Below are positions 9,950 to 26,985 of a stretch of 27,029 nt of DNA, one piece after another. Within the stretch, counting starts at the first letter, position 1. Each line of letters starts with the position of its first letter. Position numbers and translations under genes: made by a program. Origin of the DNA: a virus; IMG/VR virus record IMGVR_UViG_3300023174_000559, positions 1 through 27,029 of that record; one strand, written 5' to 3'. The notes under the pieces are model-generated. The model did not search any database, had not been told where the DNA came from, and saw only the letters and a list, made by a program, of their open reading frames with translations.

Positions 9950-10556
9950 GCACAGTCTTTTGTATTTGATGGGTGTCACATGGAAATATGACACCATGTT
10001 CAACTCAGTATTCACAGAACATAATCTACAAGATTTGTTTTATAATGCTGGCGTAGAAACTATTGCTGTTGATTATGAATCCAGCGACACATATGAATCA
10101 TTGGTTGAGGATGTGAACAAAATATCTTCAGAAGTTGACTTTATCATGGGGTATAGTTTTGGTTGTCTTCTAGCAGTGGCTACTGCGCAAACAAATACAA
10201 AGGCTATAATTTTATTGGATGCCAATTCTTTGGGTGGTAATGGTGGTAAAAACTACATTGAAGATAAAGAAACTGCTAACCAATATTTTGAAAAAGATCT
10301 AGCAGTTGTTAACAAAAAATTAAAAGACATCCCCGAAAAATTGATTATCAATCCATACAAACCAAAAACATTTTTAATTTTTAGTGACTATGGAAACAAA
10401 AATAATAATCTATGCACGCATGGTATGTATCTTGGAGCGTTAGGTAAAGTTAATAAAACAGTCATAAAAAATTCTTCTCATTATATTATGATAGAACCTA
10501 CCCGATTCGAACTTGCCAAACAAATATTAGGGATTATGAATGAACTCAATAGATAA
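9915..10556 (+). CDS. Alpha/beta hydrolase (esterase/lipase-like) 1
   Basis: 213 aa. The nucleophile elbow GYSFGC places the serine at residue 81, a likely acid is in IFSDYG (D158), and the histidine is in NSSHY (H189). The order Ser-Asp-His fits the alpha/beta hydrolase fold. There is no signal peptide. The given start is a GTG inside the end of dsbA. TTG 9960 or ATG 9969 are alternatives; the first beta strand (HSLLYLMGV) argues for a start at or before 9960. It overlaps the next gene by 17 nt. Substrate unknown; thioesterase, esterase or amide hydrolase are all possible. Confidence 0.78.
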   Translation: MLIHRKTPPNHKHSLLYLMGVTWKYDTMFNSVFTEHNLQDLFYNAGVETIAVDYESSDTYESLVEDVNKISSEVDFIMGYSFGCLLAVATAQTNTKAIILLDANSLGGNGGKNYIEDKETANQYFEKDLAVVNKKLKDIPEKLIINPYKPKTFLIFSDYGNKNNNLCTHGMYLGALGKVNKTVIKNSSHYIMIEPTRFELAKQILGIMNELNR

Positions 10557-11367
10557 TTACCCAGCTTGGAAAAATGGTAAGTATTGTAAAGTTAAAGATC
10601 TGACAGTTTCTGTTTTAGATCTTGGTTTAATTCATTGTGACGCAACGTATGATGTGCTAGCTGTGCGCAATGGCGAGATTGAAAATCTCGATGCACATCT
10701 ACGCAGGTTCATTCGTAGTTCTATAGGATGGCGCATTCCAGTTGAGTGGTCTGATAATGATATTGAAATTGTTATTCAAACACTAGCTGCCATGGCACCG
10801 ACTGACGATCTATTAGTTTGGATCGGTGTAACACGTGGTATACCAACATCTGGTAACCCAAGAGATCTAGCCAACTGTAAACCAAATCTTTTTATCTATA
10901 CTAAACCTTACTATGGGTTTAATAAAGAAAACACAGCCACAGTCTGCTTAGCCAAGCAGAAGAGAAACACTTCTATTGACCAAACGATGAAGAACTTTGC
11001 TTGGAACGATTTGAACCTAGCACAGTGGGAAGCAATTGATCGTGGTTATGATACTGCTGTATTATTGGACCATGAAGGTCTTATTACTGAAGGACCAGGA
11101 TTTAATGTTGGTTTTATTCGAGGTGGCAAAGTATATGCACCGAAGAATAATTGCCTTAAAGGTACTGTGATGGAATTGGTTAAATCCTTATGCGAAAGAA
11201 ATGGTATTTGGTTTGAGTATGGTAACATACTACCATGGTTTGCTGAAACTTCTGATGCAATGTTTTTAACATCAACAGCTGGTAATGTTATTACAGTGAA
11301 GTGTTTTGAAAATAAGTATTTTAATGAAAATGAGACTTTAACATGGTTACAACAGAAGTTAGCCTAG
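10540..11367 (+). CDS. Class IV PLP-dependent aminotransferase/lyase
   Basis: 275 aa. Fold-type IV PLP enzyme (branched-chain aminotransferase, D-amino-acid transaminase or aminodeoxychorismate lyase family). Visible are VLDLGLIHCDATYDVLAVRNGEI, LDAHLRRF (phosphate-binding Arg near 55), the PLP lysine in TMKNFAWNDLNLAQWEA (K151), the conserved Glu in GLITEGPGFNV (E184), and STAGNVI near 265. The length is close to the 270-300 usual for the family. Motifs do not separate the subfamilies clearly; CLKGTVMELV replaces the commoner LxGITR loop. It overlaps both flanking hydrolase genes (17 and 25 nt), so the three are probably one translational unit. Confidence 0.88.
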   Translation: MNSIDNYPAWKNGKYCKVKDLTVSVLDLGLIHCDATYDVLAVRNGEIENLDAHLRRFIRSSIGWRIPVEWSDNDIEIVIQTLAAMAPTDDLLVWIGVTRGIPTSGNPRDLANCKPNLFIYTKPYYGFNKENTATVCLAKQKRNTSIDQTMKNFAWNDLNLAQWEAIDRGYDTAVLLDHEGLITEGPGFNVGFIRGGKVYAPKNNCLKGTVMELVKSLCERNGIWFEYGNILPWFAETSDAMFLTSTAGNVITVKCFENKYFNENETLTWLQQKLA

Positions 11368-16061: not shown

Positions 16062-16658
16062 ATGAAGACAGTTGGAGAAAAATTAGAACCATTCGTTATC
16101 ACTGGTGTTAAGCCAGGACAACCAGAAGATGCATTCTTTGCAATTGATGAGAAGTCATTCGCTGGAAAGTGGAAAGTTATTGTATACTATCCAAAGGATT
16201 TTACATTCGTGTGTCCTACTGAGATTGTAGCATATGATAAGTTGTTCCAAGATTTTGAAGATCGTGATGCAGTTCTATTGACTGGTTCTACAGACAATGA
16301 GTTCTGCAAAGTGGCTTGGCAAAAAGCACACCCAGATCTACAAAAGATTAAGCATATTCAATTTGCTGATACAGTTCGTGGTGGATATCAAACAGGCGAT
16401 GTTCCTGATACACTTGGTATTGAAACTAACTATCGTTGGAATAGAGGTTTGATTGACCAGCTTGGTGTATTCTATGAACCTGCTGGTGCTGCATTGCGTG
16501 CAACATTTATTGTTGACCCAGACAATGTTATTCAACATGTTACAGTAAACAACTTGAATGTTGGTCGTTCACCTGAAGAAACTTTGCGTATCCTTGACGC
16601 ACTTCAGACTGGCGAATTATGTGCATGTAACCGCACTGTTGGTGGAGAAACACTATAA
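16062..16658 (+). CDS. ahpC: AhpC-type 2-Cys peroxiredoxin
   Basis: 198 aa. Reduces peroxides using a peroxidatic Cys (C51 in FTFVCPTEIV). Near the C-terminus GELCACNR carries C187 and C189, matching the unusual three-cysteine arrangement of mycobacterial-type AhpC (ELCPCN), which works with AhpD rather than AhpF. Other marks are YPKDFTFVCPTE, DNEFCKVAW, GVFYEPAGAALRATFIVDP and NNLNVGRSPEETLRILDALQTGELC. It is full length for the AhpC/Prx family. The start has RBS AGGAG five nt upstream. TAATG overlap with a TerC gene, and ahpD follows. Confidence 0.95.
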   Translation: MKTVGEKLEPFVITGVKPGQPEDAFFAIDEKSFAGKWKVIVYYPKDFTFVCPTEIVAYDKLFQDFEDRDAVLLTGSTDNEFCKVAWQKAHPDLQKIKHIQFADTVRGGYQTGDVPDTLGIETNYRWNRGLIDQLGVFYEPAGAALRATFIVDPDNVIQHVTVNNLNVGRSPEETLRILDALQTGELCACNRTVGGETL

Positions 16659-17311
16659 TGATTGAGATAATTTGGGCAGTCATTGCTATTATATTAATTG
16701 ATATCGTTCTCGCAGGAGACAATGCATTAGTTATCGGTATGGCTGCAAACCGACTGCCTGAACATCTTAGGAAAAAAGCAATTCTATGGGGAACCTTTGG
16801 CGCAGTGGCGATTCGTTTCGTCAGCGTTGCGTTGTTAACATATCTGTTATTGATTCCAGGATTAAAACTTATCGGTGGCTTGGCACTGATTTACATTGGT
16901 TGGAAATTAGCATTCCAAGGTAAAGACCACAGTGTTACAGCCAAAGATACTTTCTGGGGAGCAATCGGTACTATCGTTCTAGCTGATGCAGTAATGGGTA
17001 TTGATAATGCCTTAGGTATTGCTGCAGCAGCTGGTGGTAATATTTGGTTAGTTGTGCTTGGTCTATTAATCAGTGTTCCTATTATTCTATTTGGTAGCAC
17101 TATCATCGCAAAACTATTACAGAAATATCCAGATAGCGTATTCATCGGTAGCTTTGTATTGTTCGTTGTAGCATTCAAGATGATTCTTGGAGAACCATTC
17201 TTGGATACACACTTGGACCCACTGCATGACTTTTATGAAAATGTTCTCCCATGGCTTGCTGCTATAATTATTACTGCTAAACAATATTACAGATCAAGAA
17301 TAAGGGATTAA
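16658..17311 (+). CDS. TerC-family integral membrane protein
   Basis: 217 aa with about seven hydrophobic segments. The family signatures are IDIVLAGDNALVIGMAA (residues about 12-28) and IVLADAVMGIDNALGIAAAA (about 106-125), whose acidic and Asn residues form the metal site. The closest bacterial type is YjbE-like TerC, several members of which export Mn(II) or help metallate secreted proteins. It sits between ahpC and ahpD with a TAATG junction upstream and 1 nt before the next gene. That placement points to metal and redox homeostasis. The ion specificity cannot be read from the sequence. Confidence 0.9.
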   Translation: MIEIIWAVIAIILIDIVLAGDNALVIGMAANRLPEHLRKKAILWGTFGAVAIRFVSVALLTYLLLIPGLKLIGGLALIYIGWKLAFQGKDHSVTAKDTFWGAIGTIVLADAVMGIDNALGIAAAAGGNIWLVVLGLLISVPIILFGSTIIAKLLQKYPDSVFIGSFVLFVVAFKMILGEPFLDTHLDPLHDFYENVLPWLAAIIITAKQYYRSRIRD

Positions 17312-17312
17312 A

Positions 17313-17819
17313 ATGGTATTTATAGAAACTGTTAAAGAAGCGTTGCCAGATTACGCAAAGGACACCAAGTTAAATCTTGACGCTGTGCTTTTGCGTAGTT
17401 CTCTACCTGTTGATGAAGCGATGGGATGTGCTGTCGCTGCATTAGCTGCAACTGGCAATGGTAAACTACTCGGTGTTCTACTAGCAGATGCACCAGCTGA
17501 CGCAAACGCTGCAATGACTGCTGCTAGTTTGATGGCACAGAACAATGTATGGTACCCATATGTTGAGATGGCTGATGATGAGCAACTCAAAGGACTACCT
17601 GCACAATTACGCATGAATGCGATTGCTACACATGGCGGAACTACAAAAGAGAGATTTGAATCTTACTCATTAGCTGCATCTATCGTTGGTAAGTGCCACT
17701 TCTGTGTCAAAGCACACTATGATGGATTAAAGAAGATGGGTTATACTGTCGAACAACTTCGTGATATCGGTCGCATTGCAGCAGTAATGAATGCATGCGC
17801 AAAAGTTTTAAATAGTTGA
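17313..17819 (+). CDS. ahpD: AhpD-like alkylhydroperoxidase/reductase partner
   Basis: 168 aa. The carboxymuconolactone-decarboxylase-like AhpD fold is supported by EALPDYAKDTKLNLDAVL, LRMNAIATHGGTTKERFESYSLAASIVGKCHFCVKAH and the length (AhpD about 175 aa). The active-site residues match mycobacterial AhpD by spacing: E116, C128, C131 and H135. The His between the two Cys (position 130) is Phe here, with His at 129. AhpD passes electrons from lipoylated proteins to AhpC. RBS AAGGGA. TGATG overlap with the next gene. Confidence 0.9.
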   Translation: MVFIETVKEALPDYAKDTKLNLDAVLLRSSLPVDEAMGCAVAALAATGNGKLLGVLLADAPADANAAMTAASLMAQNNVWYPYVEMADDEQLKGLPAQLRMNAIATHGGTTKERFESYSLAASIVGKCHFCVKAHYDGLKKMGYTVEQLRDIGRIAAVMNACAKVLNS

Positions 17820-18379
17820 TGTCAACAATTAAACATGAATGGTGGTCAACCCCAGTCTGGGAAGTAGAGACTGGGTTTGACGATCAATTTAATAATAAGT
17901 TGTTACAAGAAATTGCCAATATACAGGTAAGTGGGTCGCCATATAATTTTAATATCTGGAATACAAAGACTCAGAATATTTCTATATTGAGACAAAAGAT
18001 TCTTACAGTTGTGCAGGAATCAACTGCTGGTATATTCAATCCATATTTTAAATTCAATCCACAGCTAACAAGAGGTTGGGTCAATCGTCAGAAACAACAT
18101 GAACATATACCACTACACGATCATGGAAATACAGTAATGGCAGTTGTATATTACATATACACTCCAGAAAATTGTGGAGATCTACTTTTAGTTGATCCAA
18201 GAAATGCACCCCTGTGGGATAGAATTTCTGAAGGTAAAGTTGATGGGATTAAATACCAACGTATAAAACCAAAAAGTGGCAAACTAATATTATTCCCTGG
18301 ATACGTTAGTCATATGGTAGAACCGAACAAGTCTGACGATACAAGGATTAGTTTAGCGACAAATATTATAACATGGTGA
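17819..18379 (+). CDS. 2OG-Fe(II) oxygenase
   Basis: 186 aa from ATG 17819, which overlaps the ahpD stop (TGATG). The jelly-roll signature is visible: IPLHDHGNTVMAVVYYIYTP carries the first metal ligands (H100/D101/H102), DLLLVDPRNAP follows, and LILFPGYVSHMVEPNKSDDTRISLATNI carries the distal His (H165) and the 2-oxoglutarate-binding Arg (R176). It belongs with putative 2OG-Fe(II) oxygenases common in T4-like phages. Substrate unknown; a protein, nucleic acid or small molecule is possible. Its stop overlaps the next gene by 7 nt. Confidence 0.85.
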   Translation: MSTIKHEWWSTPVWEVETGFDDQFNNKLLQEIANIQVSGSPYNFNIWNTKTQNISILRQKILTVVQESTAGIFNPYFKFNPQLTRGWVNRQKQHEHIPLHDHGNTVMAVVYYIYTPENCGDLLLVDPRNAPLWDRISEGKVDGIKYQRIKPKSGKLILFPGYVSHMVEPNKSDDTRISLATNIITW

Positions 18380-19587
18380 GAGAAATGATATTTGAAGACT
18401 CAAAAGCTCCAGCTTGGATGATCAGAAAAAATGGTTATTATAAAGTTGGTAGTAAAAACTTTGTTCATAAAACTCTGGCTTTAACTGAAGCCAGTAGAAG
18501 TAAAATTTATCCTAAATGGGATTTTTGTGAAAACGTGTTTTCCAAATGTGATTGGAAAACACCAGTACAAACCAGCTTGTTAGAATTATACAAAATACGT
18601 GCGCAACAATTAAGAGATAAGTATGAATATGTTATGCTAGCGTATAGCGGTGGAGCAGATTCAGATAGTGTTCTTCATAGTTTTATTGATAATAATATCA
18701 AATTAGATGAGATAGTTATACATTGGCCAGAATCTATCTCCAAAGGTTGGAAAATTTCTCGTGATAAAAACGCAGCAAACATTTTAAGTGAATGGGAGTT
18801 AACTGCTAAACCCAAACTTGCTTGGGTTGAGAAACATTACCCAGAAATTAAAATTACATTTTTGGATATGAATACATTAACTACTGAGTATTCAGAAGAC
18901 ATGTTCACAATTGCTAATGATGCAATTGATTATATTCCAATTAAACGACAGCGACAAATTCATGCAGTATCTAGTAAATTATTAAATCAAGGTATCAATG
19001 CATGCATCATTTACGGAATTGATAAACCGACATTTAATATAATTAATAATGAGTTTTGTGTTTTGTTCATTGATAGAATGACGCAAGTTGTATCTGATAT
19101 CGCTGAAGGAAAAGAACGTAATATTGAATATTTTTATTGGGCAGAAGATTTACCAGAACTTTTGATCAAACAAGCACAAATATTCTATGCATATTTCAAA
19201 CAAAATCCACAATTACTTAGATTAGTTTTTCGCAGGGATAATAATGGTGTAGTTACATATAGACCACCAGAGGAAGATGCCGATATTTTAAGAGATTTGA
19301 CTGCTAAATTAATATATCCTACATGGGATACCAATCTATTCCAAGCAAGTAAAGCGAGGAATGTTATCACAGCAGAACATTTTGATTTTTTTAGATATGC
19401 AAATTTCGGAGATTCAAGATTTCGTGATTCTCATTTGAGTGCACTTACTACACAATTAAACTTAATTGATGATAAGTATTTTATTGGTGGTAGGAGACCA
19501 GCTAATCGTGGATGTAGCTATATTGCTTTTATTTCTGGAAAATATTCTCTGGGTCCTATCAACCCAATTATTATGAAAAATGATTAA
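18373..19587 (+). CDS. PP-loop ATP pyrophosphatase-type enzyme A
   Basis: 404 aa. The PP-loop AYSGGADSDSVLHSF (about residues 89-103) is the ATP-binding SGGxDS motif used by adenylate-forming enzymes (asparagine synthase, TilS/TtcA, PAPS reductase, QueC families). Upstream is a unique N-terminal region. Downstream are LDEIVIHWPES and several Trp/Tyr-rich blocks. No CxxC zinc or Fe-S motif of TtcA is seen and no glutaminase domain precedes it. An in-frame start at 18385 is possible. It is a diverged paralogue of the next gene. Reaction unknown: adenylation followed by amidation, thiolation or ligation is inferred. Confidence 0.8.
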   Translation: MVREMIFEDSKAPAWMIRKNGYYKVGSKNFVHKTLALTEASRSKIYPKWDFCENVFSKCDWKTPVQTSLLELYKIRAQQLRDKYEYVMLAYSGGADSDSVLHSFIDNNIKLDEIVIHWPESISKGWKISRDKNAANILSEWELTAKPKLAWVEKHYPEIKITFLDMNTLTTEYSEDMFTIANDAIDYIPIKRQRQIHAVSSKLLNQGINACIIYGIDKPTFNIINNEFCVLFIDRMTQVVSDIAEGKERNIEYFYWAEDLPELLIKQAQIFYAYFKQNPQLLRLVFRRDNNGVVTYRPPEEDADILRDLTAKLIYPTWDTNLFQASKARNVITAEHFDFFRYANFGDSRFRDSHLSALTTQLNLIDDKYFIGGRRPANRGCSYIAFISGKYSLGPINPIIMKND

Positions 19588-20737
19588 TAAAAACTTAGGT
19601 TATTATGTTTGCGATGGTATCGAGTTTTCATCGAAGGTAGATGCTTGTCTTTATGGTAAAACAGTAAACAAACCAGTTAACTGGATTTTTCATAACGATG
19701 AGTTTTCCAGATTCCCATGGAATATAGAACCACAACAAACTCTAGACGAATTATATGATAGAAGAGCCAGAGAACTAAGAGAGAAGTATGATTACATTAT
19801 CTTAAGTTTCTCTGGTGGTTCTGATACAAATAATATCCTTGAAAGTTTTATTCGTCAAGGATTGCATATTGACGAGGTTGTGACTAATCACATAACTTCA
19901 GCAACCAAATCAACAACAGTCCTCAATCCAAATATTAAAGATTCGTGGAACTTTGCTGCTGAGCATGACTTGCAAGCAGTTCCAAGATTAAAATACATTC
20001 AAGAAAAATGCCCAAGAACTAAAATAACAGTTCTGGATGTTAGTGAAGTCGTTTTAAATTCAATGAATGTATTTGATGATGTTGATTGGGTTCTTCATCG
20101 CAATGACCATCTTTCTATTGGGCAACTGTTCAGATATAACTATTTTCACTTCGGCGAGATGAAGAAACAGTTTGATAAGAATCTAAAAATTGGATTGATA
20201 GTTGGTCTTGATAAACCGAAACTGGTAATCAAAGGTGATAACAATTTCTATATCTATTTCCCAGATTCAGTTGTAAATATCACCACTATCAATGACTTCA
20301 ATCAGGACTACACCAATCTAACTACAGAACTATTTTACTGGGGTAAAGAAACTTTACCGATGCTCGCCAAACAAGCACACACAGTGAAGAGATGGCTAGA
20401 AACAAACCCACATTTCCAACAATATTGGAAGTCTAGCACGTTCGCCACTGTTAGAACGCACCAAGAACAACTACTAAGAAATTTAATATATACTACTTGG
20501 AACGATAATTGGTTTCAGGTAAATAAATCAACAAGTTGGTTCAATACTGAATTTGATACATGGTTTAAAAATAATCCAAATATGAAACGAGAATTGGCTA
20601 TGTGGCAGCGAGGTATTGATTACCTATCCAAACAGTTACCTGAATATATTAGCTATAATGAACAGGGTAGACCTGACGCTATGAAACAATTTAAGCATGA
20701 ATATAAAATTGGTATGATGAAAAGAAAGTTTGTATGA
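19580..20737 (+). CDS. PP-loop ATP pyrophosphatase-type enzyme B
   Basis: 385 aa. The PP-loop ILSFSGGSDTNNILESF (about residues 72-88) follows the same N-terminal layout as enzyme A (TLDELYDRRARELREKYDYI against SLLELYKIRAQQLRDKYEYV). Shared blocks include YGIDKP/VGLDKP, FYWAEDLPELLIKQA/FYWGKETLPMLAKQA and YPTWDTNLFQ/YTTWNDNWFQ. The pair thus arose by duplication and divergence. The overlap with A is 8 nt and with the next gene 4 nt. Possibly a heterodimer or two steps in one pathway. Confidence 0.8.
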   Translation: MINKNLGYYVCDGIEFSSKVDACLYGKTVNKPVNWIFHNDEFSRFPWNIEPQQTLDELYDRRARELREKYDYIILSFSGGSDTNNILESFIRQGLHIDEVVTNHITSATKSTTVLNPNIKDSWNFAAEHDLQAVPRLKYIQEKCPRTKITVLDVSEVVLNSMNVFDDVDWVLHRNDHLSIGQLFRYNYFHFGEMKKQFDKNLKIGLIVGLDKPKLVIKGDNNFYIYFPDSVVNITTINDFNQDYTNLTTELFYWGKETLPMLAKQAHTVKRWLETNPHFQQYWKSSTFATVRTHQEQLLRNLIYTTWNDNWFQVNKSTSWFNTEFDTWFKNNPNMKRELAMWQRGIDYLSKQLPEYISYNEQGRPDAMKQFKHEYKIGMMKRKFV

Positions 20738-21882
20738 ATATTGCTCTACTGTCAAAATCTTCAAGTTATCAACATCTTGCTAAAAAATTTATAGATCAAG
20801 GACATACTGTTGAAATGTTCTATGACATGTCAATTAAACTAAGTACTAAACCAAAGTTTTTTATGGCATCGGGAATTCCTGTATGTAGAAATAGCTATAT
20901 GCACAGTTTACTTAGCAATAACAAAATTCCATATTTTTTCGTCAATAATAAATCCACCGAGTATGAGAATGATAAGTTTTTAACTAAGAAAATGTTAAGA
21001 GAACTTAACATACCAACTCCGAATGGTATTTTGGTTACAGGTGCTGAATTAAAAACCAATTTTAATACATACGCTATACCATTTGTAATTAAAATAAATT
21101 ATGCTTATTTTTATGGTAGACAAACTATTGTTGTCACGGAAGAAAATAAGGAAGAGGTATACAAATTTCTATTCAATAAAAGCATTTATCATATAAAAGA
21201 CGACGCAAGTATTGTTATTGAAGACTACGTTGAAATCGATAGAGAATATTCATATCACGCACTATTCAACTATAACTGCTGGAGATTCTTCGGAGCAGCC
21301 AGAGATTACAAAAAGATTGAAGATGGTGATGAGGGATATAACTCTGTTAGTTGCGGAGCATACTCAACACAAGAAGTTGATGAAATTGTTCACACCTATG
21401 CTGACAAAATATACAAGTACTTTAAGAAGATTAACCTTATGTATCGTGGGTTTATTTTCTTGGGGATTGCTGTAAGAAAAGATGGGACTCCGATGGTTCT
21501 TGAAATCAATACAAGAAGTGGCGATCCAGAGTTACAGGTTATGGTAGAATGTATAGAAAATGATTTAGCCAGTTTATTCTTAAATGCAAGCTGTGATTAT
21601 GTTTTACCACAAATTAAATTTAATAGAAAACAAGCAGTAACAGTTTCTTTGTTAAACCAACATTATGATTGGACAATCCCAGCATATGATTTGCCAGATT
21701 TAAAAGATATACCACCCAATATAATTTACAGTAAAGACCAATTTCCTGATGGTTTGAAACATGGGGTTTTGACTGCAGTTTCAGATACAAAAGAAAAAGC
21801 AAGTAAAATTATCTACGATTATTTGAACACCCAATATATTGGGCAGTATAGATATCGTAATGATATAGGTATACTAAAATGA
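20734..21882 (+). CDS. ATP-grasp ligase (PurD-like C-terminal half)
   Basis: 382 aa. ATP-grasp fold. The C-terminal catalytic block LEINTRSGDPELQVM (E257, N259, R261, D264, E266) closely recalls GARS/PurD (EFNVRFGDPE). FVIKINYAYFYGRQTIVV is the ATP-binding lysine region and IVIEDYVEIDREYSYHAL the ATP-lid strands. It is shorter than PurD and its N-terminus differs, so it may ligate another amino acid or carboxylate. ATGA overlap with PP-loop enzyme B. The family joins a carboxylate to an amine with ATP; the substrates here are unknown. Confidence 0.83.
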   Translation: MNIALLSKSSSYQHLAKKFIDQGHTVEMFYDMSIKLSTKPKFFMASGIPVCRNSYMHSLLSNNKIPYFFVNNKSTEYENDKFLTKKMLRELNIPTPNGILVTGAELKTNFNTYAIPFVIKINYAYFYGRQTIVVTEENKEEVYKFLFNKSIYHIKDDASIVIEDYVEIDREYSYHALFNYNCWRFFGAARDYKKIEDGDEGYNSVSCGAYSTQEVDEIVHTYADKIYKYFKKINLMYRGFIFLGIAVRKDGTPMVLEINTRSGDPELQVMVECIENDLASLFLNASCDYVLPQIKFNRKQAVTVSLLNQHYDWTIPAYDLPDLKDIPPNIIYSKDQFPDGLKHGVLTAVSDTKEKASKIIYDYLNTQYIGQYRYRNDIGILK

Positions 21883-21909: not shown

Positions 21910-22296
21910 ATGGCATATTCAGACAAAGTTATCGACCATTACGAAAACCCAAGAAATGTTGGATCGTTATCAAAGGACGACCCAAGTGTTGGCACAGGTA
22001 TGGTTGGTGCTCCTGCTTGCGGTGACGTAATGAAACTGCAAATTAAGGTTAATGATGATGGTATCATTACCGATGCCAAGTTTAAAACATATGGTTGCGG
22101 AAGTGCAATTGCTTCGTCTTCACTGGTAACAGAGATGGTAAAGGGAATGTCTATCAAAGATGCAGCCCAAATTAGAAACAGCCAGATCGCTGAGGAGCTT
22201 GCACTACCACCTGTTAAAATTCACTGCTCGATTTTAGCAGAAGATGCCATTAAAGCAGCAGTTAAAGACTACGAACTAAAGTGTTCTTGCAAATGA
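21910..22296 (+). CDS. iscU: IscU-type Fe-S cluster scaffold
   Basis: 128 aa, same length and numbering as E. coli IscU. The cluster ligands are all present: C37 and D39 (VGAPACGD), C63 (YGCGSAIA), H105 and C106 (VKIHCSIL). The LPPVK chaperone (HscA) recognition motif is at residues 99-103. The tail ends in two extra Cys (KCSCK). It probably builds 2Fe-2S clusters in the infected cell from host IscS sulphur. No RBS is visible before the ATG. The ATGA junction with iscA implies co-translation. Confidence 0.95.
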   Translation: MAYSDKVIDHYENPRNVGSLSKDDPSVGTGMVGAPACGDVMKLQIKVNDDGIITDAKFKTYGCGSAIASSSLVTEMVKGMSIKDAAQIRNSQIAEELALPPVKIHCSILAEDAIKAAVKDYELKCSCK

Positions 22297-22598
22297 TTAC
22301 AGTTACAGAATCAGCAACATCTAAGATTGCAGATCTACTCGCAGAAAACCAAGAGCCATACCTTCGCATATCTGTAAAGGGTGGTGGCTGTTCTGGTTTC
22401 TCCTATGCATTTGACTTTGAATCCCAGAAACAAGAAGATGATTTTGAGATTGACAAAATCGTAGTTGATTGTATGAGCATGCAATATCTCCAAGGTGCAA
22501 CTGTTGACTTCGAACAGAAGATGTTTGAGTCAGCATTCAAAATCTCCAATCCCAACGCAAAACAAACTTGCGGTTGCGGTTCTTCCTTCGCTGCCTAA
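22293..22598 (+). CDS. iscA: A-type Fe-S cluster carrier (IscA/ErpA-like)
   Basis: 101 aa from ATG 22293, chosen because it overlaps the iscU stop (ATGA); a codon at 22281 is in frame but lies inside iscU. The three conserved cysteines are C33 (GGGCSGFSY) and C93/C95 (QTCGCGSSF). Length and motif order match IscA/ErpA, which carry Fe-S clusters to targets. Together with iscU it forms a minimal assembly module. No IscS or ferredoxin gene is seen here. Confidence 0.94.
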   Translation: MITVTESATSKIADLLAENQEPYLRISVKGGGCSGFSYAFDFESQKQEDDFEIDKIVVDCMSMQYLQGATVDFEQKMFESAFKISNPNAKQTCGCGSSFAA

Positions 22599-23548: not shown

Positions 23549-23573
23549 AACACCCACTTCGGTGGGTGTTCTT
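23549..23573 (+). terminator. UUCG-loop terminator
   Basis: AACACCCAC (23549-23557) pairs with GTGGGTGTT (23562-23570) across a TTCG tetraloop, followed by CTT. It is a very stable 9-bp hairpin just after the 22777 gene and overlaps the 5' region of the next gene. Confidence 0.85.
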
Positions 23574-23582
23574 GGAGTACAC

Positions 23583-24002
23583 ATGGAACAGAATCAGTAT
23601 CAGGGAATTAATCCATTGATTTATTTTCCACCATTCCCACCATTTCCAGTAGTTACAACACCACCACAAATTTGTGGTAACGATAATGATGTTATCAATG
23701 TTGTGAATTATGCGAAGCCAAGTCCAGTTCCTGTAACTGAAGTTACAACACCAGAATACACTGCTACATCAGCTGATTATTTCTTGTGTGTAACACATGC
23801 AGGACAAGTAGTGATTACGCTACCAACTGGAATTTTGGGAACTGTGTATATTATTAAAGATTGTGATGGTAACGCATCACCAACGACACCAATTATAGTT
23901 CAAGGAACAGGTCAGAATGTTGACATTGGCACAGCCACTATCAACACATCGTTTGGTAGCATTACTGTTATTTTCAATGGTGAAGCATGGAGTATTGTGT
24001 GA
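23583..24002 (+). CDS. Fibre/decoration-like protein with beta domain, 1
   Basis: 139 aa from ATG 23583 (TTGGAG RBS at 23573-23578; an upstream in-frame GTG lies in the terminator stem). Pro/Phe-rich N-terminus (FPPFPPFPVVTTPP) and a beta domain (about residues 58-139): YTATSADYFLCVTHAGQVVITLP, GTVYIIKDCDGNASPTTPI and TINTSFGSITVIFNGEAWSIV. This domain recurs in 24852-25250 and 25252-25749. Such domains occur in head-fibre or tail-fibre proteins. Function inferred from composition and context. Confidence 0.62.
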   Translation: MEQNQYQGINPLIYFPPFPPFPVVTTPPQICGNDNDVINVVNYAKPSPVPVTEVTTPEYTATSADYFLCVTHAGQVVITLPTGILGTVYIIKDCDGNASPTTPIIVQGTGQNVDIGTATINTSFGSITVIFNGEAWSIV

Positions 24003-24851: not shown

Positions 24852-25250
24852 ATGTCTTATTCAAATAACCCCACCTCGATCCTTGCAGGAACAGGTATTT
24901 CTATTTCTCCAACTTCTGGTACTGGTGCGAACACTATCACTATCTCAGCAACTGGTGTGCAAACACTTGCAGTTCGTGTAGCTGTTGCGACTCCAGTCGC
25001 AGTGGTCAATACAGATGATGTAATTTCTGTTGAGGTTCCAGGTCCAGTGGCAGTTGCTGTGAATTTACCAGCAGGTGTTACAGGTCGTGTGTTCAACATT
25101 AAAGATGGTTTAGGTCTTGCTGCTCCAGCAACTCCAATTACCATTACACCAGCAGCAGGTACTATTGATGGTGCAGCTACTGCAACTATCAATGCACCTT
25201 ATGGCTCATTGACTTTGGTTTATAGTGGAACTGAATGGAAAGTGTTATAA
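24852..25250 (+). CDS. Fibre/decoration-like protein with beta domain, 2
   Basis: 132 aa. RBS AAGGAAA 4-5 nt before the ATG. The N-terminal stretch SILAGTGISISPTSGTGANTITISA is a fibre-type beta repeat. The C-terminal beta domain (VVNTDDVISVEVPGPVAVAVNLP, GRVFNIKDGLGLAAPATPI, ATINAPYGSLTLVYSGTEWKVL) is homologous to the end of the 23583 protein. Ala/Val/Thr-rich. Likely a virion surface protein; inference. Confidence 0.65.
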   Translation: MSYSNNPTSILAGTGISISPTSGTGANTITISATGVQTLAVRVAVATPVAVVNTDDVISVEVPGPVAVAVNLPAGVTGRVFNIKDGLGLAAPATPITITPAAGTIDGAATATINAPYGSLTLVYSGTEWKVL

Positions 25251-26451: not shown

Positions 26452-26525
26452 TCCCGAATGGTGTAGTGGTAGCACAGCAGACTTTGACTCTGTTAGTATA
26501 AGTTCGATTCTTATTTCGGGTGCCA
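26452..26525 (+). tRNA. tRNA-Gln (TTG)
   Basis: Acceptor TCCCGAA/TTCGGGT with a 1:72 T-T mismatch, D arm GTG/CAC, anticodon stem GCAGA/TCTGT with loop CTTTGAC (anticodon TTG), T arm ATAAG/CTTAT with loop TTCGATT, and encoded CCA. Confidence 0.9.
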
Positions 26526-26529
26526 TATA

Positions 26530-26588
26530 GAAGCACACTTTGCACAGTGAAAGCCTGTCCCAATGAACTTGAGAGGGTAGTGTGTTTC
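26530..26588 (+). ncRNA. Unassigned hairpin RNA between tRNA genes
   Basis: GAAGCACACT (26530-26539) pairs along ten bases with AGTGTGTTTC (26579-26588), with one G-T pair. The 39-nt interior can form small stems (CAA/TTG, CCC/GGG). It does not match a standard tRNA cloverleaf: no T loop TTCRA or anticodon arm is seen. May be a tRNA-array RNA or a decayed tRNA. Confidence 0.4.
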
Positions 26589-26599
26589 AATATGGTTTT

Positions 26600-26673
26600 G
26601 GGTGTATAACTTAGTGGTAAAGTAACTGGCTTTTAACCAGTAAACCAGAGTTCGATTCTCTGTGCACCTACCA
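26600..26673 (+). tRNA. tRNA-Lys (TTT)
   Basis: Acceptor GGGTGTA/TGCACCT, anticodon stem ACTGG/CCAGT with loop CTTTTAA (anticodon TTT), T arm CAGAG/CTCTG with loop TTCGATT, discriminator A and encoded CCA. Confidence 0.92.
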
Positions 26674-26675
26674 AT

Positions 26676-26750
26676 GGTGTCTATGATGTAGTGGTAGCAT
26701 TAGGGATTGTGATTCCCTCCGTATGAGTTCGATCCTCATTAGACACCCCA
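26676..26750 (+). tRNA. tRNA-His (GTG)
   Basis: Acceptor GTGTCTA/TAGACAC with the His-specific extra G at -1 (26676) opposite C73 (26747). Anticodon stem AGGGA/TCCCT with loop TTGTGAT (anticodon GTG). T arm ATGAG/CTCAT with loop TTCGATC, and CCA encoded. Confidence 0.94.
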
Positions 26751-26751
26751 T

Positions 26752-26827
26752 GCAACTTTAGCTGATGTGGTCATAGCGGTGGTCTGAAGAACCATTGAAG
26801 TAGGTTCGATTCCTACAGGTTGCACCA
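26752..26827 (+). tRNA. tRNA-Phe (GAA)
   Basis: Acceptor GCAACTT/AGGTTGC, anticodon stem GTGGT/ACCAT with loop CTGAAGA (anticodon GAA), T arm GTAGG/CCTAC with loop TTCGATT, discriminator A and CCA. Confidence 0.93.
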
Positions 26828-26828
26828 T

Positions 26829-26903
26829 ACCCGATTAGCTCAGTGGTAGAGCAATCGCTTGATAAGCGATAGGTGAGTGGATCGTTACCACTATCGGGTA
26901 CCA
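26829..26903 (+). tRNA. tRNA-Ile (GAT), unusual T loop
   Basis: Acceptor ACCCGAT/ATCGGGT, anticodon stem ATCGC/GCGAT with loop TTGATAA (anticodon GAT), T stem AGTGG/CCACT and CCA. The T loop reads ATCGTTA instead of the usual TTCRANN, so position 54 is A and 58 is T. Confidence 0.88.
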
Positions 26904-26910
26904 AGTTTAT

Positions 26911-26985
26911 GCAGGATTAATTCAGTGGTAGAATGTTTCGTTGCCAACGAAAATGTCATCGGTTCGAACCCGATATCCTGCTCCA
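26911..26985 (+). tRNA. tRNA-Gly (GCC)
   Basis: Acceptor GCAGGAT/ATCCTGC, anticodon stem TTTCG/CGAAA with loop TTGCCAA (anticodon GCC), T arm ATCGG/CCGAT with loop TTCGAAC, discriminator T and encoded CCA. Confidence 0.94.

Follow-up and report, generated by a model that had tools for sequence, protein, structure and literature searches.

A divergent PP-loop protein family of phages, its recurrent linkage to a PurD-like ATP-grasp gene and a possible role in amide-bond formation

The window, i.e. the whole stretch of DNA analysed, is a 27-kb record (27,029 nucleotides) from an uncultivated virus. It contains four consecutive, overlapping genes encoding a putative 2OG-Fe(II) oxygenase (OXY), two PP-loop proteins (PP1 and PP2) and an ATP-grasp ligase (GRASP); all four reading frames lie where the preliminary description had placed them (Table 1). 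OXY starts with the ATG at 17819, and a TTG at 17816 is also possible. Just 5' of OXY (16062–17819) are genes for a peroxiredoxin, a TerC-like membrane protein and an AhpD-like protein. Farther upstream are a class IV aminotransferase, an alpha/beta hydrolase, a T4 RNase H-like nuclease and a dCMP deaminase, and six tRNA genes (Gln, Lys, His, Phe, Ile and Gly; 26452–26985) lie at the window's end. The aminotransferase is kept upstream in the related loci L005, L009, L010 and L012 and is possibly part of the same pathway, the link being a weak one. The IscU-like gene has the same neighbourhood in L003, L005, L008, L010 and L064. In L005 (12925–13935) and L010 (11803–12792) two different IscA-like genes follow IscU, and the window has one. 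Two further window genes, at 23562–24002 and 24852–25250, are mutually related; relatives of one match the other at ~40% over part of their length.

Table 1. Window genes considered in the text, with the evidence for each assignment
Feature	Position	Strand	Basis
Class IV PLP aminotransferase	10540..11367	+	PF01063 E 2e-31
OXY, putative 2OG-Fe(II) oxygenase (PF13759 / phrog_81)	17819..18379	+	profile matches
PP1, divergent phage PP-loop family member, accessory slot	18373..19587	+	SGGADSDS, long isolated branch
PP2, core-type phage PP-loop family member	19580..20737	+	SGGSDTNN, AlphaFold, Foldseek
GRASP, PurD-like ATP-grasp ligase without detectable GARS_N	20734..21882	+	GARS_A
IscU-like Fe-S scaffold, 27 nt downstream of GRASP	21910..22296	+	NifU_N E 5e-53
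IscA/ErpA-like Fe-S carrier	22281..22598	+	PF01521 E 3e-17

The overlaps (7 nt for OXY/PP1, 8 nt for PP1/PP2 and 4 nt for PP2/GRASP) had been taken as a sign of one translational unit. They do not set these genes apart, since overlap is common to 21 of the 41 consecutive gene pairs in the window, and four more overlapping pairs form another run in it. The run extends upstream to the AhpD-like gene, so that by this measure the four genes do not stand apart as a unit, and gene overlap was rejected as evidence of one pathway. On a Cupriavidus plasmid, which gives the best plasmid match to the AhpD-like protein (54%), counterparts of the peroxiredoxin and AhpD-like genes lie next to each other and in the order seen here. 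Because of this shared order there is a hint of a Burkholderiales host, which serves as a lead only.

PP1 (motif SGGADSDS) and PP2 (SGGSDTNN) are true paralogues, since roughly 330 of their residues can be aligned, at ~29% identity and with an E-value near 1e-33. Neither has an above-threshold family in Pfam, PHROGs or NCBIfam. There is no match to QueC (PF06508) or to Asn_synthase (PF00733), the latter being unmatched also in the relatives G014 and G015, and the family has no significant match amongst PDB sequences. A tblastn search of 50,697 phage records with PP1, PP2, two distant members and an AsnB-like neighbour gave no match. A DNA search of the phage records matched iscU only, with two of the matches in records named 'Acinetobacter phage MD-2021a' whose content resembles bacterial chromosome. 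One record of that name, CAKLQF020000009.1 (L001), carries an isc operon and mfd. No description of the family, or of its link to TctC-like proteins, was found in the literature searched. The term 'undescribed-looking', applied earlier to the module, is therefore apt for the PP family.

PP1 as query found no relative in IMG/VR, and the relatives of PP2 there are 44–94% identical. A family search with an alignment of 14 members (A1) matched at least 393 confirmed IMG/VR stretches. Twenty long contigs carry one to five PP matches each, some of them weak and to shorter PP-loop genes. Two copies (G005:C1:192281-193405 and G012:C1:116386-117531) have one in-frame stop each and are either decayed or affected by assembly errors. 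A scan of 84,980 cellular genomes by conserved peptide patterns, which distant relatives could escape, found a single match, on a 12.7-kb contig of a Nitrososphaerales archaeal MAG (L090, JANWKP010000389.1). This contig is probably misbinned phage DNA, because its gene neighbours are those of the phage loci, and the family is apparently restricted to phages.

Over 122 members the SGGxD loop is retained almost without exception (G80 and D82 in all 122, S78 in 121 and G79 in 119), and S78, G80, D82, E128, D153, G209, K212, D229, K264, Q265, Y304 and K316 are kept in nearly all. The catalytic-type residues are present in both window copies. The family has no conserved cysteine motif of the zinc or Fe-S kind. 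PP2 falls within a well-supported clade of 54, apart from the isolated PP1, and several distinct PP-loop types stand within the same loci. A separate AsnB-like PP-loop family occurs in the same phages (L035, 14591–15883; L005, 10269–11357; G014, 84092–85204); the L035 and L005 genes have SGGIDS, and the G014 copy lies amongst long structural-looking genes.

Structure prediction and a Foldseek search, proposed as checks in the preliminary description, gave a good AlphaFold model of PP2 (pLDDT 82.7, pTM 0.86) that matches amide-forming PP-loop synthetases. Carbapenam synthetase ranks first in the PDB (E 8.5e-4), ahead of NAD, GMP, beta-lactam and asparagine synthetases, and TilS and TtuA are amongst the weaker matches. 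These matches to many PP-loop enzymes identify a HUP-like alpha/beta ATP-binding fold; they cover the ATP half, with marginal E-values, high probabilities and a TM of about 0.3, so the reaction class suggested for PP2 is one read from its ATP-binding half. In the model this half resembles that common to amide-forming PP-loop enzymes, and the C-terminal half is PP2's own. PP2 thus shares with carbapenam, beta-lactam and asparagine B synthetases the PP-loop ATP half, with SGGxD, and has in them its best structural matches. Unlike them, it lacks an N-terminal Ntn glutaminase-like domain, since only about 55 residues precede the ATP half, and its C-terminal half differs from theirs. In BFVD, six uncharacterised proteins (A0A6J5TD96 and others, 'uncultured Caudovirales phage') match PP2 over its full length with TM 0.69–0.83 and 22–27% identity; on their predicted folds, these are unannotated members of the PP family.

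GRASP matches GARS_A above the cut-off (E 2e-20). Like PurD (phosphoribosylamine-glycine ligase), it has the GARS_A region and an EINTRxGDPE motif, and its model, poor as it is (pLDDT 62), resembles the whole PurD fold. In contrast to PurD, GARS_N is absent at E<=1, the score against NCBIfam purD (TIGR00877) is 104 bits, far below the cut-off of 288, and the gene neighbours are PP-loop genes; PDB profile matches to GAR synthetases begin at residue 59. The earlier assignment as a PurD-like ATP-grasp ligase is thus borne out over GARS_A, but does not extend to GARS_N or to the purD family. Because the PurD catalytic region is kept with no detectable N-terminal domain, GRASP is probably not a purine enzyme, and a plain GAR synthetase was rejected on the absence of GARS_N and the purD score. 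The same two results make it very improbable that the genes serve auxiliary primary metabolism, with GRASP as a phage GAR synthetase and the PP proteins as nucleotide or NAD amidases boosting nucleotide supply. The alignment of GRASP with GAR synthetases over the catalytic domain and overall fold, and the NAD and GMP synthetases amongst the Foldseek matches of PP2, are in keeping with such a role, but neither PP protein matches a family of NAD, GMP or Asn synthetases.

For the analysis of gene neighbourhoods, loci were collapsed to 58 independent groups and a neighbour was defined as lying within two genes of a full PP gene. Expected counts were obtained by shuffling positions within the same loci, the background being these loci and not matched genomes. 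GRASP lies next to, or at most two genes from, PP genes in every ATP-grasp locus found, and all six GRASP genes count as neighbours by this definition (1.7 expected by position shuffling). The loci comprise the window lineage (L003/L009, L005, L010, L012 and L017), L096 (44% identity) and L069 (30% identity). L096, retrieved by the ATP-grasp query only, has the order DctP-GRASP-PP-PP-short PP-further PP-like gene, and L069 has PP-PP-TctC-GRASP-short PP-PP. Since PP and ATP-grasp genes adjoin in three separate lineages, at identities down to 30%, theirs is a true association.

The other members of the window cluster are less constant. L008 is without GRASP, though otherwise close to the window. 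In L008 and L012 the PP1 slot holds a PP gene of another clade, not orthologous to PP1, and in L005, L009, L010 and L017 it is empty. OXY matches PF13759 (E 4e-19; 69 bits, cut-off 27) and phrog_81 (E 5e-33), and its HxH...H...R pattern is kept in relatives; the related solved structures, 3bvc and 2rg4, are both uncharacterised. The gene is absent at L005 and L012 and displaced in L010. Its family is common in phages generally, and OXY shows no significant link to PP genes (p 0.34, position shuffling, 58 groups). Because the PP1 slot varies and OXY is found in some relatives only, the stable core is PP2 with GRASP, and PP1 and OXY are exchangeable accessories. The functional link originally proposed for four genes, for which a co-occurrence search had been suggested, therefore survives for the PP-loop and ATP-grasp genes, which recur together, but not for all four as a fixed module.

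In the wider neighbourhood, TctC-like solute-binding proteins are found near PP genes in 28 of the 58 groups (37 genes against about 11.8 expected, p about 2e-4). DctP-like binding proteins occur in 11 groups, NMO-like flavin enzymes in eight and fatty-acid hydroxylases in five, the last two being above expectation. Oxidising or redox enzymes (NMO, 2OG, fatty-acid hydroxylase/desaturase, Rieske and radical SAM) are common amongst the other neighbours; IscA, fatty-acid desaturase, Rieske and radical SAM are each not significant alone over the 58 groups. The TctC proteins have, by eye, a hydrophobic export-signal-like N terminus, which the DctP-like ones lack. Signal-bearing TctC genes lie beside PP genes in L013, L014, L020, L025, L030, L034, L064, L072, L073 and others, and no transporter membrane genes were recognised beside the TctC and DctP genes. 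At 162 kb, G014 is the nearest long relative; alongside PP2 and GRASP it encodes a shorter PP-loop protein, several OXY-like proteins, an AsnB-like protein and a TctC-like protein.

Such diversity amongst the PP-gene neighbours would be expected of an auxiliary-gene hotspot, where unrelated metabolic genes gather in one variable region of large phages with no joint pathway. A hotspot would fit OXY and PP1, which come and go, the overlap in half of the window's gene pairs, and the lack of a significant PP link for OXY, IscA, fatty-acid desaturase and radical SAM. As an account of the whole it is nevertheless unlikely, given the pairing of PP with ATP-grasp in three lineages, the excess of TctC genes and the NMO and fatty-acid hydroxylase counts.

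Two kinds of macromolecule modification were also considered. The ligases could attach or amidate groups on tRNA, ribosomal or host proteins, like TilS-like or R2K ATP-grasp enzymes. Modification of tRNA and protein is known for PP-loop and ATP-grasp enzymes, the window has its six tRNA genes, and TilS and TtuA are amongst the weaker structural matches of PP2; for the R2K ATP-grasp peptide ligases of jumbo phages, a role in modifying host proteins has been proposed (PMC7824862). The family's lack of a cysteine motif and the PurD-like nature of GRASP argue against this, and paralogue diversity and metabolic neighbours suit metabolites better, so that we rate it as somewhat more unlikely than a hotspot. 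Lower still, and less likely than the making of a small molecule, is hypermodification of phage DNA bases against host nucleases. Multiple exchangeable ligases and oxygenases would suit such an arms race, as would the dCMP deaminase in the window, but export-signal TctC proteins beside PP genes do not fit it, and genes of the thymidylate-synthase (hydroxymethylase) and QueC families are absent from G014 and G015 (162 and 102 kb, possibly incomplete).

The best explanation, to which we give about an even chance, is a modular phage amide-bond-forming cassette that makes or tailors a small molecule during infection. In the order of steps that we infer, the SGGxD loop of PP2 (and PP1) would probably bind the ATP used to adenylate a carboxylate, with pyrophosphate released. 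The adenylated carboxylate would then probably be joined to an amine or ammonia, as by carbapenam, asparagine and NAD synthetases. GRASP would probably form a second carboxylate-amine bond via an acyl phosphate, in the manner of PurD on a different substrate, and OXY would hydroxylate or desaturate an intermediate or the final product. Iron-sulfur clusters for phage or host enzymes may come from IscU and IscA. The outcome would most likely be a small molecule with an amide link, formed inside the infected cell and varied as accessory genes are swapped between phages. Genes for a carrier protein, for export or for self-resistance were not recognised.

In the clavam pathway of Streptomyces, ORF17 is an ATP-grasp enzyme. 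That pathway (BLS, clavaminate synthase and ORF17) brings together PP-loop amide closure, a 2OG oxygenase and an ATP-dependent glycyl ligase (PMC7830376), and resembles the cassette in reaction types, as an analogy only; in contrast, OXY is a PF13759 protein, and no further step of clavam synthesis was seen in the window. A predicted secondary-metabolite cluster of jumbo cyanophages such as S-SSM6a is likewise phage-borne and has 2OG oxygenases, but it is built on carbamoyltransferases and a halogenase, and its description names no PP-loop or ATP-grasp ligase (PMC7824862).

A broader proposal, possible but doubtful, is that a phage-specific system, present in several copies, is common to large uncultivated phages, and that its diversified amide-forming PP-loop ligases, its ATP-grasp ligase, oxygenases and transporter-less solute-binding proteins would yield an infection-specific small molecule, perhaps taken up or sensed, through a class of chemistry not described before. 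The stretches matched by the PP family, nameless in the family libraries searched, represent a sizeable blind spot in phage metabolism. The linked PP2 and ATP-grasp pair is small and expressible, which makes the question testable. If DNA, RNA or protein were modified instead, a new modification route would be indicated; if a metabolite is made, infecting phages would count as makers of specific small molecules.
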